The notes below the pieces were generated by a model that was not told where the DNA came from, ran no database searches, and saw only the letters and a list, made by a program, of their open reading frames with translations. From Lachnospiraceae bacterium (GTDB taxonomy: Bacteria; Bacillota; Clostridia; Lachnospirales; Lachnospiraceae): a stretch of 55,129 bases of DNA. The position numbers and the translations under genes were made by a program. The stretch is taken from positions 1 through 55,129 of the forward strand of contig JAFZVZ010000031.1 of the NCBI GenBank assembly GCA_017617545.1, given 5' to 3'. Shown here in pieces: positions 5,993-9,770 of this stretch (the first letter of the stretch is position 1; each line of letters opens with the position of its first letter).

Positions 5993-7099
5993 TCACTCGG
6001 CAACAAACCCGCTTCCGTTCCACCGCAGCACGGTCTTGTATCCGAGCTTGCCGTACCACTGTGTCTCGTACGTGTAGTGGATATAGCTGTAGTCGTACAA
6101 TTCCTCCCGCAGGATCTCCGTCACGTTGCGGACCATCGAAAGTCCGATCCCGCGGTCGCGGTACTCCGGCAGCGTCCCGACACAGCCGGGACCGCCGATC
6201 TTCCAGGTCATGCCATCCACAACGTGCTCGCCGAAGTCCTCGATCATGCAGAAGCTCGCGATCCTGCCGTCCACAAAACCGCAGTAGACGCGCGACTCCC
6301 TGGAAAAAAGCGGCACCCAGTGCGGAATAACCTTCGCGACTGCCTCCGTTAGCTCCTCGAAGTCACCGTTGTAATAACCGAAGGTGACATTTTCCGGAAA
6401 ATCCTTTACATAGCATTCCGGGTCAAACTCCTGAAGCCGCAGCAACTGTTCCGAGGCAACTTCATCATCCGGTACGCGCTTCACATAGTCGCGCTCGAAG
6501 TACCCCGGATGAATATCCAGGAAGAGCTGCTCGTACTGCTCCCGCGTCACGCGGTCGCTTCGAAGCACCGAATAATACGCCGTGTCGTGAATTCCCCGCA
6601 TGTTCTTCTTGGCGCCTCGTAAAATGCCGTCGAAGTGCATGCCGGCCTTCTGCATCACGCGCCCGGACTTCGGGTTTCGAAGATCGTGCGTCGCGTAGAT
6701 GCGCATCAGGTCGCTCTCGCCCTCGAAGAGGTAGTCGATCACGGCCCGGAGCGCCTCCGGCATGAAACCCTTGCCCCAGTACGCCTTGCCCAGGCAGTAG
6801 CCGATCTCGTAGGAGCATGTCCGCTCTTCACGCTCGACCACCGCGATGTTGCCGATGACGTGATCATCGCCCTTCACGGTGATGCCCCAGTTGTAGGTCT
6901 TCCCGTCCTCGTAGAACGAAACCCATTTCGTCAGGAGGCTTCTCGTAAAATCGACGCTCGTGTGCGTCGGCCATGACAGGAACTTCGTAACCTCCGGGTC
7001 GGACGTCCAATTGTTAAACATATCCTCAGCGTCCTCGACGCGGTATCTCCGAAGGATCAGCCGCTCCGTCTCAATTGTCTTGGTTCCGATCGTATTCAT
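5993..7099 (-). CDS. Tandem-GNAT acetyltransferase (RimJ/L-like plus second GNAT)
   Basis: The 368-residue protein contains two GNAT domains. The N-terminal domain begins TIETERLILRRYRVEDAEDMF, the classic RimJ/RimL opening, and has the motif GKGFMPEALRAVIDYLF. The C-terminal domain carries GTLPEYRDRGIGLSMVRNV. The start at 7099 is chosen because GGAGAAG precedes it; the open frame extends to 7327 without a plausible site. RimJ/L-type domains acetylate protein N-termini or aminoglycosides. The role of the second domain is unknown, and tandem GNATs often have only one catalytically active half. Confidence 0.8.
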   Translation of the reverse strand: MNTIGTKTIETERLILRRYRVEDAEDMFNNWTSDPEVTKFLSWPTHTSVDFTRSLLTKWVSFYEDGKTYNWGITVKGDDHVIGNIAVVEREERTCSYEIGYCLGKAYWGKGFMPEALRAVIDYLFEGESDLMRIYATHDLRNPKSGRVMQKAGMHFDGILRGAKKNMRGIHDTAYYSVLRSDRVTREQYEQLFLDIHPGYFERDYVKRVPDDEVASEQLLRLQEFDPECYVKDFPENVTFGYYNGDFEELTEAVAKVIPHWVPLFSRESRVYCGFVDGRIASFCMIEDFGEHVVDGMTWKIGGPGCVGTLPEYRDRGIGLSMVRNVTEILREELYDYSYIHYTYETQWYGKLGYKTVLRWNGSGFVAE

Positions 7100-7148: not shown

Positions 7149-7805
7149 TCAGGAAATCCACCAGGTTCCGTCCGGCGACCGGTACAGCGCCCCGACCTCC
7201 TCCGAGACCGTGTTGCCGTCCATGTCCTTGACGACCACCTTGTGGTAGTACTTGTACTTATCGGTCGCACGGTCATTTTCCGTGTCCCAGCCTTCCTCGA
7301 CCCACTCCTCGAGGTAAACCTTACCATCCTCGATCAGCTCGACGGTCTGATGCGGTGTGAGCGTCATCGTAAAATGCTCCGGATAACAGCATTCCGCCGT
7401 CTCGCCGTTCTGGCTGAGCACATGCACTTCGCTTCCGACGATCCGCAGGTTATAAAGCTTCACCTCGTCCGTTCCGAAGGCCGTGACCGCCTCGGGCGTT
7501 TCGCCGGGAAGATATCGGTACAGCGTCACCTTTCCCTTGCCGTAATCGCCCTGTAAAAACCAGTATTGTCCGTCCGCGTACACCGGGTCTGTGTACGCGA
7601 CGTTCTTTTTCTTCCGGAACGGCTTGTATACCTTGCCGTTCGAAAGATCATAAAACAGGATCACCGAGCCGGGGTAGCCGCCGCGCTCCGCCCACTCGAC
7701 CAGATCGTACAGATCCGAAGTGTCCGTGTGCGCATACGCAAGGCGGTCCTGTCCGTAAATCTTCTCGATGTACTGTCCTTCAACAGTGTCAAACCGTTTG
7801 ATCAT
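7149..7805 (-). CDS. Unknown 218-residue protein overlapping the ABC-F gene
   Basis: I do not recognise a family. The sequence is rich in aromatic residues, Gly and Asp with short beta-strand-like segments (SVILFYDLSNGKVY, YWFLQGDYGKGKVTLYRYL), suggesting a small beta-propeller-like or WG-repeat-like fold. No signal peptide or membrane segment is visible, so it is probably cytosolic. Its 5' end overlaps the 3' end of the ABC-F gene by 17 bp (7789-7805), so it is translated from the same antibiotic-responsive transcript. That coupling is the only functional hint. Confidence 0.55.
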   Translation of the reverse strand: MIKRFDTVEGQYIEKIYGQDRLAYAHTDTSDLYDLVEWAERGGYPGSVILFYDLSNGKVYKPFRKKKNVAYTDPVYADGQYWFLQGDYGKGKVTLYRYLPGETPEAVTAFGTDEVKLYNLRIVGSEVHVLSQNGETAECCYPEHFTMTLTPHQTVELIEDGKVYLEEWVEEGWDTENDRATDKYKYYHKVVVKDMDGNTVSEEVGALYRSPDGTWWIS

Positions 7806-9360
7806 GATTGCTCCAATCTTCTTCCTTCACTAGACCTTCCGGACCGAGCCGGTAGATCGTGTCACACACTTCCGATAGATACTTACGGTCGTGCGAAACG
7901 CTGATGATCGCCCCCGGAAAATCCCCAAGCATCCGCCGGATCACCGGCCCCGACAGCGGCGAAAAATTCCGCGTCGGTTCATCGAGGATGAGCACGTTCG
8001 CTCCCGACATGCTGAGCTTCAGAAGCAACACCTTCGCCTTCTGTCCGCCCGAGAGCTCGCGGATCGGATGATCCATCTCATCCGCCGTGTACTTAAGAGA
8101 TCCTAAATATGTGCGGATCCGTGTCCGCTCCTCCTTGTCCCCGGTCGTGTCCAGGTAATCAACGGGCGTCTCATCGAGGTCCAGAAGCTCCTCGTAGTTC
8201 TGCGGCATGTACTGTGCCCGCAGGTCCGGTCTTGAGAGCAGCTCCTCCGCGATCTTCGTGATCATCGTCGTCTTGCCGCAGCCGTTGTAGCCGATGATAC
8301 CGATCTTCTCGGAACCGCGAACCTTGAGGGTTACATTTTCCGCTAAAACGCGGCTGCCGTCCACCGTCGTAAGCGCCGGGATATCACACCGGACAACCCA
8401 CTTGCCGGACGGGATCACGCTGTTCGCATCGCCGAGCTTAAAGAAGATCGCCTCCTCCTGCTCCGGCATCTCGGTCATGTTCTCGTCCTCGCGCTCAAAG
8501 CGGTGCTCGAGCGCCTTGACGTTCTTCATTTTCTTCTTGAGAATCCGCCCGACCGCGTCGTGGAACGAATAGTGCGCGTTGCTGAGCTGCGCGTTCACCG
8601 CCTGCTCCTGCTTCCGGATCTTCTCGTCGCGGATGCGCTTCTCGCGCCGCTCGCACTGCGCGACCTGCTCCTGCTTCTCGAATGCATTCTGCCGCTCCTC
8701 GACGTACTGCCGGTACGGCACGTTCGCCACCGTGTGCCGGCACATCGTCTTCCTGCGAAGCTGCTCGAAATGTACCACACGGTTGGCCGTGCGCTCGATC
8801 AGCGTCTCGTCATGCGAGATGAACAGCACCGCGTGCGGCCAGCTGTTGATCAGCTCCTCCATCCACTCGAGCGTCTCGATGTCGATATCGTTCGACGGCT
8901 CGTCCAGCAGCAGGATCGTCGGGTTCTCCACGAGGATCCGCATCATCTGCGCCTTCACGCGCTCGCCGCCGGAGAGTGTGCACATCTCCTGCTCGCGGTA
9001 GAAAAACTCCGCTTCGACATGACAGCCCGATGCCAGCTTCGAGAGCTCCTTCGGCGTCTTGTCGAGGAATTCCGCGCTCTCGCAGAAGTACTCGCAGACC
9101 GTCTTGTGCTTCTCTTCCTCCGGAAGCTCCTGCGGCAGGTATCCGAGCTTTTCGCCGCTCATGACCCTCTCACCCTTGTAATCGACATAGTCGTCAACGA
9201 GCTCCGGATCATAGATCCACTTCATCAATGTGGACTTTCCGTTTCCCTCCTCGCCGATCATTACGACACGGTCGCCGTCGTTCAGCACGAGGGAGAAATT
9301 CTGAAGGATCGTATGCAGATCCTTATTATGAGTTATTGTAACATTTTTTATCTGAAACAT
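7789..9360 (-). CDS. ABC-F family ATPase, probable antibiotic-resistance ribosome protection protein
   Basis: The 523-residue cytosolic protein has two ABC domains and no membrane segments, as in ABC-F proteins that dislodge drugs from the ribosome. Domain 1 has Walker A GEEGNGKST (36-44), signature LSGGERVK, Walker B ILLLDEPSNDID and FISHDE. Domain 2 has Walker A GYNGCGKTT, signature LSGGQKAK, Walker B VLILDEPTRNFSP and SVSHDRKYL. A basic, helical interdomain linker (KKKMKNVKALEHR) is present. Both Walker B glutamates are retained, but the D-loops (SNDID, RNFSP) depart from the usual TNHLD. The start at 9360 has AGAGGTGAT upstream. The leader with a short ORF and terminator is the hallmark of drug-inducible members such as vmlR-type genes. 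Drug class is not predictable. Confidence 0.85.
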   Translation of the reverse strand: MFQIKNVTITHNKDLHTILQNFSLVLNDGDRVVMIGEEGNGKSTLMKWIYDPELVDDYVDYKGERVMSGEKLGYLPQELPEEEKHKTVCEYFCESAEFLDKTPKELSKLASGCHVEAEFFYREQEMCTLSGGERVKAQMMRILVENPTILLLDEPSNDIDIETLEWMEELINSWPHAVLFISHDETLIERTANRVVHFEQLRRKTMCRHTVANVPYRQYVEERQNAFEKQEQVAQCERREKRIRDEKIRKQEQAVNAQLSNAHYSFHDAVGRILKKKMKNVKALEHRFEREDENMTEMPEQEEAIFFKLGDANSVIPSGKWVVRCDIPALTTVDGSRVLAENVTLKVRGSEKIGIIGYNGCGKTTMITKIAEELLSRPDLRAQYMPQNYEELLDLDETPVDYLDTTGDKEERTRIRTYLGSLKYTADEMDHPIRELSGGQKAKVLLLKLSMSGANVLILDEPTRNFSPLSGPVIRRMLGDFPGAIISVSHDRKYLSEVCDTIYRLGPEGLVKEEDWSNHDQTV

Positions 9361-9459
9361 GAAGGGTATCACCTCTACTTTCTGAAAGAAAATACACCTC
9401 CGGAGCGCATTCGCAAACCTCATTTCTTTCGGTTTGCTCATGTTTGTGTTCGTTTGCTT

Positions 9460-9497
9460 AACACAAACAAAGCCCCGGCACCTTCCGGTGTCGGGGC
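9460..9497 (-). terminator. Leader attenuator (intrinsic terminator) upstream of the ABC-F gene
   Basis: On the minus strand GCCCCGACACC and GGTGCCGGGGC form an 11-bp stem with one A/C mismatch around a GGAA tetraloop (9472-9497), followed by TTTGTTTGTGTT. It lies about 57 nt after the leader-peptide stop and about 100 nt before the ABC-F start, so it would stop transcription before the coding region unless disrupted. Confidence 0.8.
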
Positions 9498-9553
9498 AAA
9501 ATATCGGCATAATAATCCTATGCAGAATCAAAGTACGAGCATAGTACTATCGC

Positions 9554-9625
9554 TTATTCCGCGCTTCTCCGGGAGGCAACTGCAATATACAAATGTGTTC
9601 TGGTAAAACGTTTTGTGACTATCAT
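9554..9625 (-). CDS. 23-residue leader peptide of the ABC-F gene
   Basis: ATG at 9625 is preceded by AAGGGAGG at ideal spacing. The short frame begins MIVTKRFTRTHLY and ends with TAA at 9554-9556, giving 23 residues. It lies between a consensus promoter and an intrinsic terminator. In established ribosome-mediated attenuation, a drug-stalled ribosome on such a leader changes the RNA fold so that the terminator does not form. The peptide is basic and hydrophobic. That it is translated and stalls is inference. Confidence 0.7.
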   Translation of the reverse strand: MIVTKRFTRTHLYIAVASRRSAE

Positions 9626-9692
9626 TTGTATACCTCCCTTTCTCGCTCACGCGTATTTATATTAGTCGTCTGATGACGCTCACCATTTTCGG

Positions 9693-9721
9693 ATTATACA
9701 GGTGCATTCGGAAAATGTCAA
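9693..9721 (-). promoter_or_regulatory. Consensus vegetative promoter for the ABC-F operon
   Basis: On the minus strand TTGACA (9716-9721) and TATAAT (9693-9698) are separated by exactly 17 bp, a perfect sigma-A promoter. The predicted start near 9686 gives a leader of roughly 325 nt carrying the leader ORF and the attenuator. Confidence 0.9.
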
Positions 9722-9770
9722 CACCGTTTTTTCAAATATCATTATCGGACAGCTTGACACCCCTGCATTA

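Follow-up and report, generated by a model that had tools for sequence, protein, structure and literature searches.

A probable ribosome-mediated transcription attenuator with a long leader reading frame upstream of an ABC-F gene in Lachnospiraceae

The 55,129-nt contig JAFZVZ010000031.1 of a Lachnospiraceae bacterium (assembly GCA_017617545.1; contig C6 of a 2.73-Mb genome; the whole contig is hereafter the window) carries on its minus strand an ABC-F ATPase gene whose leader is probably a ribosome-mediated transcription attenuator. The leader appears to follow the plan of the vmlR and cplR leaders, with a long open reading frame (ORF) that carries its own anti-Shine-Dalgarno strand. An initial annotation of this DNA had listed a promoter, a leader ORF with a ribosome site, a hairpin and the ABC-F start with its own site, and each of these lies on the minus strand where that annotation placed it. 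The key part, which it missed, is that the last codons of the leader ORF (CCTCCCGGAG) have two complementary partners: the ribosome site of the ORF itself and the upper part of the terminator hairpin. The leader contains the following parts:

9693..9721, minus strand: sigma-70-type promoter TTGACA-17-TATAAT (-35 TTGACA at 9721-9716, 17-nt spacer, -10 TATAAT at 9698-9693), matching the consensus at 12/12 positions
9667..9678, minus strand: small 5′ hairpin CGTC-atca-GACG at the transcript start (sequence and fold)
9633..9640, minus strand: Shine-Dalgarno of the leader ORF, AAGGGAGG, which together with the bases on to 9624 makes segment 1 (sequence)
9554..9625, minus strand: leader ORF of 23 codons, peptide MIVTKRFTRTHLYIAVASRRSAE followed by a stop (ORF reading; frame kept in 18/18 leaders)
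9569..9576, minus strand: segment 2, CCUCCCGG, the anti-Shine-Dalgarno strand of the off hairpin and the 5′ strand of the antiterminator (folding, alignment)
9498..9568, minus strand: spacer, predicted to fold as a long rod within the antiterminator (folding and spacer shuffles)
9472..9497, minus strand: terminator hairpin GCCCCGACACC-GGAA-GGTGCCGGGGC with a GGAA (GNRA) loop (sequence, alignment)
9488-9481, minus strand: 3′ strand of the antiterminator, CCGGAAGG, inside the terminator hairpin (folding, alignment)
9459..9471, minus strand: U-rich tail TTTGTTTGTGTTA (sequence)
9397..9408, minus strand: segment 3, GCGCUCCGGAGG, with partial complementarity to segment 2 (duplex scoring)
9361..9401, minus strand: hairpin covering the ABC-F Shine-Dalgarno AGAGGTGAT (9376-9368) (fold)

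The promoter is as perfect as the initial annotation held, and the 23-codon ORF with its strong ribosome site stands. The GC-rich stem with a GNRA loop and U-rich run is present as well, although the stem has an A-C mismatch in its middle and the U-run is imperfect, with 6 T among the 9 bases after GGGG (CTTTGTTTG). The leader RNA of the window is far more stable than its shuffled versions (z -4.1, 0/100 shuffles).

We propose that in the off state the leader ORF would be translated and its Shine-Dalgarno would pair with the anti-Shine-Dalgarno in the last codons (the 1:2 pairing, an anti-antiterminator); alternatively, a ribosome near the stop codon would cover segment 2. The terminator would then form and transcription would stop at about 9460. 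In the on state, a drug-arrested ribosome on the first codons would hide segment 1 and leave segment 2 free to pair with the top of the nascent terminator (the 2:T pairing), closing the long rod. With the antiterminator finished before the terminator 3′ arm is made, RNA polymerase would enter the ABC-F gene, a 218-aa gene and a GNAT acetyltransferase gene, which may thus be induced together.

As far as sequence comparison can establish them, the leader parts, their conservation and the in-frame ORF are secure. Most tests rest on a set of 18 leaders of this type (class A), drawn like the other named relatives from uncultured Lachnospiraceae, many of them rumen-derived. Ten were found through the ABC-F gene alone (L002-L006, L008, L010, L012-L014), six through a pattern containing segment 2 (L034, L035, L045, L068, L073, L081) and two (L088, L089) through R1, a covariance model built from 16 leaders; L007, whose leader peptide is identical to that of L008, and L011, which is interrupted by a run of N, were left out. 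The distance from ATG to CCTCC is 46, 49 or 52 nt and always in frame (18/18), and from the start of segment 2 to the leader stop there are 20 nt in 16 leaders and 17 nt in two. Segment 2 is invariant in the first 16 leaders, in six of them because the search pattern contained it. The 1:2 pairing is in the best fold of 11/11 leaders given (of 18), with 94% of its alignment cells paired, and in L088/L089, where CCUCCU stands opposite AAAGGAGG, an exchange of A-U for G-C keeps it. For 2:T, 88% of cells are paired vs 36-49% in slid versions. A terminator-like hairpin is present in 18/18 leaders, starts 43-67 nt past the leader stop codon and is followed by at least 4 T in 9 in 17/18. Two pairs of its stem show two-sided changes, one of these being unpaired in 5/16.

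The initial annotation had asked whether leader ORF and terminator are conserved in orthologous loci, and both are. The ABC-F gene occurs at ≥79% identity in 13/22 genomes of the genus, the window's own included; the upstream region of L009 ends at a contig edge, leaving 12 readable genus orthologues, again with the window. All 12 have the leader ORF, which also precedes the same gene in L034, L068, L088 and L089, and 11/12 have the terminator hairpin (the L011 copy is cut by the run of N). In 10/12 the ORF is preceded by a similar promoter ending 60-71 nt upstream; in L007 the distance is 244 nt, and in L011 no such promoter was found. The end of another ORF, seen by eye, stands between promoter and leader in L007, which suggests an insertion. 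In several relatives another small hairpin, also read by eye, occupies the position of the 5′ hairpin.

Folding of part-made transcripts that end right behind the opening bases (GGUG) of the terminator 3′ arm predicts the switch from 1:2 to 2:T. In free transcripts the probability of 2:T, p(2:T), is at most 0.32 in 18/18 leaders, while with segment 1 blocked it is at least 0.66 in 16/18 (0.97 in the window). By this measure the antiterminator is exclusive with the terminator and favored by a stalled ribosome in 16/18. Its 3′ strand lies directly against the remainder of the terminator 3′ arm, so the two structures should be unable to coexist. Shuffling the spacer alone lowers the mean p(2:T) in 17/18 leaders (all but L089), and the native value is reached by at most 10/100 spacer shuffles in 14/18.

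A ribosome footprint (-15/+16) moved along the ORF places the relevant stall near the start. At codon 1, p(2:T) is at least 0.66 in 17/18 leaders; at codon 8 it is at most 0.32 in 18/18, and across codons 16-22 all 18 give 0.00. The window values at codons 1-4 are 0.99, 0.99, 0.90 and 0.01, and a footprint of -20/+16 keeps the antiterminator on through codon 5. Folding thus supports the initial reading that stalling on the leader prevents terminator formation, with the refinement that the stall is needed at the first codons. Because the antiterminator arises from first-codon stalls and from none at codons 16-22, an arrest function is not required of the peptide body. A stall of this kind would point to drugs acting at initiation or on formation of the first peptide bonds rather than to late arrest of the macrolide type; ribosomes near the ORF end would also mask segment 2.

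Several observations weigh against transcription attenuation as proposed here. Two-sided changes are absent from the 2:T pairing, which also does not exceed shuffled columns (score 339 of 500). Blocking segment 1 fails in L006 (p(2:T) 0.35) and L089 (0.08), and a ribosome at codon 12 also yields 2:T in several leaders (L073 0.99; window 0.22). The window hairpin at 9497-9472 is absent from the list of a simple terminator scan, L005 is without a U-run (1 T in 9), and L125, a leader of similar plan described below, shows no clear switch in folding. Finally, in full-length RNA the terminator has a probability of at least 0.95 at equilibrium, blocked or not (18/18). The mutually exclusive pairings that the initial annotation proposed to look for by folding are seen in part-made transcripts, whereas at full-length equilibrium the terminator wins; given this dominance the switch must be kinetic, with the antiterminator finished first. 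On balance, the checks that can be computed (conservation, and exclusive pairings in part-made transcripts) favor a ribosome-mediated attenuator.

The best-surviving alternative, which we consider rather unlikely, is that attenuation is mainly translational, as in erm leaders: the GC hairpin would be a mere spacer, and a stall would free segment 2 to pair with segment 3 (2:3) and open the ABC-F Shine-Dalgarno. Among the 15/18 leaders that include the ABC-F start, a segment 3 site recurs 41-56 nt 5′ of that start in 12, which speaks for such a layer, as do the missing U-run of L005 and the window's ABC-F Shine-Dalgarno, which is mostly paired in the free state. The same fold predicts that this site is only partly opened once segment 3 is taken, and good U-runs (6-8 T in 9) in L034, L035, L073, L081, L088 and L089, together with the lack of a clear segment 3 in L073/L081 (by eye), argue for termination. 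The 2:3 duplex beats the shuffle mean in 15/15 leaders and is within the best 10% of 200 in 9/15; the window falls just outside (21 of 200) and lacks a compact best duplex. Swapping segment 2 between species gave no species-specific 2:3 pairing, the duplex usually remaining as strong (at least one partner better in 13/15, native best in 2/15), in a comparison where segment 2 hardly varies among the swapped leaders. A second layer, with 2:3 competing against the hairpin at 9401-9361, is thus possible beside transcription attenuation, and would place translation-level control at the ABC-F Shine-Dalgarno.

Between terminator and segment 3, positions 9398-9471 of the window form a palindromic insertion, also present at differing lengths in L003, L004, L006, L011 and L035. 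The hairpin is 111 nt from the ABC-F start in the window vs 51-54 nt in the shortest relatives. A high-copy repeat was rejected as the source of this insertion, the window's genome holding just one 33-nt partial copy (82%, E 0.0145). We also dismissed an 11-codon ORF just 5′ of the ABC-F gene (MRSGGVFSFRK, then a stop), whose start is absent in L003 (by eye).

Improbable, in our view, is a peptide-specific late arrest of the macrolide type within the leader, read out by conserved C-terminal residues. SRR near the C-terminus is kept across the genus (as ASRR or TSRR), and R-x-K or R-x-R occurs near the peptide start in L003, L010, L014 and L068, as such an arrest might lead one to expect. The C-terminal residues are, however, encoded by CCTCCCGGAG; in L088/L089 SRR becomes SWR or SWS with the pairing kept, and in none of the 18 leaders does a ribosome at codons 16-22 leave an antiterminator. 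We thus rejected SRR as an arrest peptide; since folding calls for a first-codon stall, it is better read as an RNA element. That promoter and hairpin form a stand-alone small RNA without a role in ABC-F control is very improbable: the transcript could end at the hairpin and no Rfam match says otherwise, but of the 18 class A leaders, 15 precede this ABC-F gene, two an ABC transporter gene, and one lies at a contig end.

Across 250 genomes, almost one for each genus in the family, a pattern search for class A leaders yielded three matches, one of them from another genus (L034, which has inverted repeats like GGGACGGTTCT...AGAACCGTCCC up to about 250 nt upstream of its leader). Among 50 stretches returned by a scan of GTDB contigs, 17 were counted as real, 12 already found and five new (L035, L045, L068, L073, L081); the remaining 33/50 are chance matches inside open frames of at least 220 codons with no class A hairpin within 260 nt. 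L045 and L062 (= L011), on contigs DBWJ01000109.1 and DBWJ01000079.1, are two class A leaders with ABC-F genes in one assembly, so this genome seems to hold two copies, a mixed bin being the alternative. Against 397 genomes of the family, R1 gave 11 matches at E ≤ 0.001: five strong ones of 94.7-175.5 bits, in the window's own genome, G018, G110, and G094 and G397 (= L088, L089), and six weak ones of 30-40 bits. In 391 genomes of the class, R1 matched five times: once in the window's own genome and four times weakly. Read by eye, L092-L095, L124, L126 and L127 are chance matches. A viral origin was rejected: 34 viral stretches fit a loose pattern, three of them with an ORF of 18-28 aa, and none resembles class A. 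Rfam returned no match in the window at gathering score; within the leader stretch the strongest sub-threshold match, at 24.2 bits vs 43 needed, is on the opposite strand.

Some leaders of this plan stand before ABC transporter genes. The class A leaders of L073 (5606-7429, minus strand) and L081 (1220-3064, minus strand), both with a strong U-run, precede a 607-614-aa ABC_tran protein that is probably a transporter; its N-terminal half resembles a transporter membrane part by eye, and no such domain is listed by Pfam. Three weak R1 matches (L125, L090, L091) share the plan of an upstream ORF (uORF), an anti-Shine-Dalgarno and a terminator, with unrelated terminator sequences. L125 (peptide MIIRVR...) precedes a protein that combines ABC_membrane and ABC_tran; L090 (MTNR... 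from a second start) precedes an ABC_membrane protein truncated where the stretch ends; and L091 has no ORF of 100 aa on its own strand within its stretch. In folding, p(2:T) rises from 0.02 to 0.41 in L090 and from 0.03 to 0.77 in L091, as in the window.

In more distant relatives the ABC-F orthologue mostly has a second leader type, class B, with a tiny ORF. In 299 genomes of the family, 43 had an ABC-F match at E ≤ 1e-100; 28 new upstream regions (L096-L123) were read by eye, 13 weaker ones being left out, and comprised two class A, 22 class B (L098-L110, L113, L115-L122, of which L102 and L103 nearly repeat L101) and four that are neither (L111, L112, L114, L123). The ABC-F genes of L100 and L119 have one in-frame stop codon each, suggesting decay or assembly error. 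In 20 class B loci a script found M-x-x-R-stop in 16 and M-x-R-stop in two, requiring a pre-stop codon with G second and A/G third, so that Gly was detectable (none found) and other residues were undetectable; by eye, L121 reads MFTR-stop and L099 MK-stop. In 8/8 class B loci folded, a long stem has the stop codon at its base (z -2.4 to -5.0), and 4/10 consensus pairs of that stem show two-sided changes. Rfam on 16 class B loci returned tRNAs only. A class B model matched 10/321 genomes of the class, the window's own not among them. By eye, MNNR-stop precedes an ABC-F orthologue in another family (L165). Class B leaders precede other ABC-F proteins, 22-32% identical to that of the window, in L166 (MIIR-stop), L167 (MKNR-stop, by eye), L168 (MRIR-stop) and L171 (MRR-stop); L169 is a chance match of the class B model (by eye), and in L170 another tiny ORF precedes an ABC-F gene.

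Both classes thus precede ABC-F orthologues and place a start-proximal uORF beside a switch-like hairpin. Class B differs in having 3 or 4 codons vs 22-24, a stop at the base of a long stem and another terminator sequence (by eye), and in also serving other ABC-F proteins. In the ABC-F tree class A (15 rows) forms one group (100/100) nested among class B bearers with paralogues as outgroup, which suggests, as the simplest reading of these sequences, that class A replaced a class B leader once; this root is not firm because the outgroup branches are very long. Some class A peptides also have M-x-x-R, with Arg at codon 4 in L010, L013, L014, L034, L088, L089 and, from a second ATG, L068 (codons CGT, CGG or CGC), whereas the first Arg of the window leader is codon 6; a common M-x-x-R arrest context is suggestive only. 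One tentative possibility is that class A is a portable cassette that serves ABC transporters and once displaced this ABC-F gene's older M-x-x-R-stop leader, both sensing a start-proximal M-x-x-R arrest that would be an unrecognized context for peptidyl-transferase drugs in gut Clostridia.

The genes that the attenuator would control are the following:

7789..9360, minus strand: ABC-F ATPase, 523 aa (Pfam ABC_tran in two stretches; best NCBIfam match NF000355)
7149..7805, minus strand: 218-aa gene of no known family, overlapping the ABC-F stop by 17 nt
5993..7099, minus strand: tandem GNAT acetyltransferase (Pfam PF13302 and PF13527), likely in the same operon

The ABC-F identity is secure by Pfam. 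Against the NCBIfam ribosomal-protection family NF000355 the protein scores 359 bits, below the cut-off of 380 for assigning the resistance function, and seven orthologues score 282-374 bits. An in-frame extension (580 aa from a TTG) was ruled out, relatives agreeing from the ATG at 9360. The downstream gene overlaps the ABC-F stop as initially noted, and its protein has no match in Pfam or NCBIfam. Across 15 class A loci whose neighbors were compared (L003-L014, L068, L096, L097), the 218-aa gene is present in six (L003, L005, L007, L008, L011, L068) and the tandem GNAT gene in 13, one of them from another genus (L096). In L006, L009, L010, L012, L013, L014 and L096 the 218-aa gene is missing and GNAT comes immediately after ABC-F. 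In L004 a 0.9-kb gap without a match lies ahead of the GNAT gene; a contig edge ends the L005 neighborhood, and L097 has just a 75-aa GNAT match at 41%.

If our reading is right, rumen and gut Lachnospiraceae hold ABC-F operons that stay silent until a drug induces them and would be missed by drug-free expression or phenotype screens, and a whole attenuator was seemingly swapped upstream of one orthologous gene. Because RNA pairing constrains the coding end of the leader ORF, searches for stalling peptides can be misled by peptide conservation, and a first-codon rule would separate initiation-stage drugs clearly from macrolides.

Comparison with known systems supports the architecture of a putative drug-inducible attenuator, as in resistance genes. 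A search for literature on Lachnospiraceae ABC-F leader peptides, attenuators and uORFs, within a coverage that excludes most subscription journals, yielded a single review, which deals with other systems, and no description of either leader type among the entries listed; PMC10219788, PMC11109978 and PMC8632094 were also consulted. The vmlR leader of Bacillus subtilis has a uORF-containing anti-antiterminator, an antiterminator with an apex hairpin and an intrinsic terminator, responds to initiation-stage arrest by lincosamide or pleuromutilin, and is reported with the statement that an antiterminator able to form first is typical (PMC9226507). The window leader shares the uORF anti-antiterminator, the antiterminator, the terminator and a hairpin partly over the ABC-F Shine-Dalgarno, but the vmlR uORF has three codons (MIN) vs 22-24 in class A, and sequence and lineage differ. 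The cplR leader of Clostridioides difficile likewise has a 5′ hairpin sequestering the uORF, an anti-Shine-Dalgarno element (named in a figure legend), a terminator, an antiterminator and layers of transcription and translation; its uORF is MR[I/M], and its terminator hairpin itself covers the cplR Shine-Dalgarno, where the window uses a separate hairpin (PMC10201436). For both plans the authors give experiments (PMC9226507, PMC10201436). The bmrB leader of bmrCD in B. subtilis resembles class A in its longer translated leader and downstream ABC transporter, as seen for class A or similar leaders in L073, L081, L090 and L125; it has three alternative hairpins and responds to lincomycin, but its terminator lies inside the bmrB coding region rather than 43-67 nt past the stop codon (PMC4191407). 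Since the complete plan is known from vmlR and cplR, the window leader is a variant of an established kind. What is unusual is the long ORF with its own anti-Shine-Dalgarno, whose 3′ codons are the switching strand and may therefore be masked by moving ribosomes, together with the apparent exchange of leaders.

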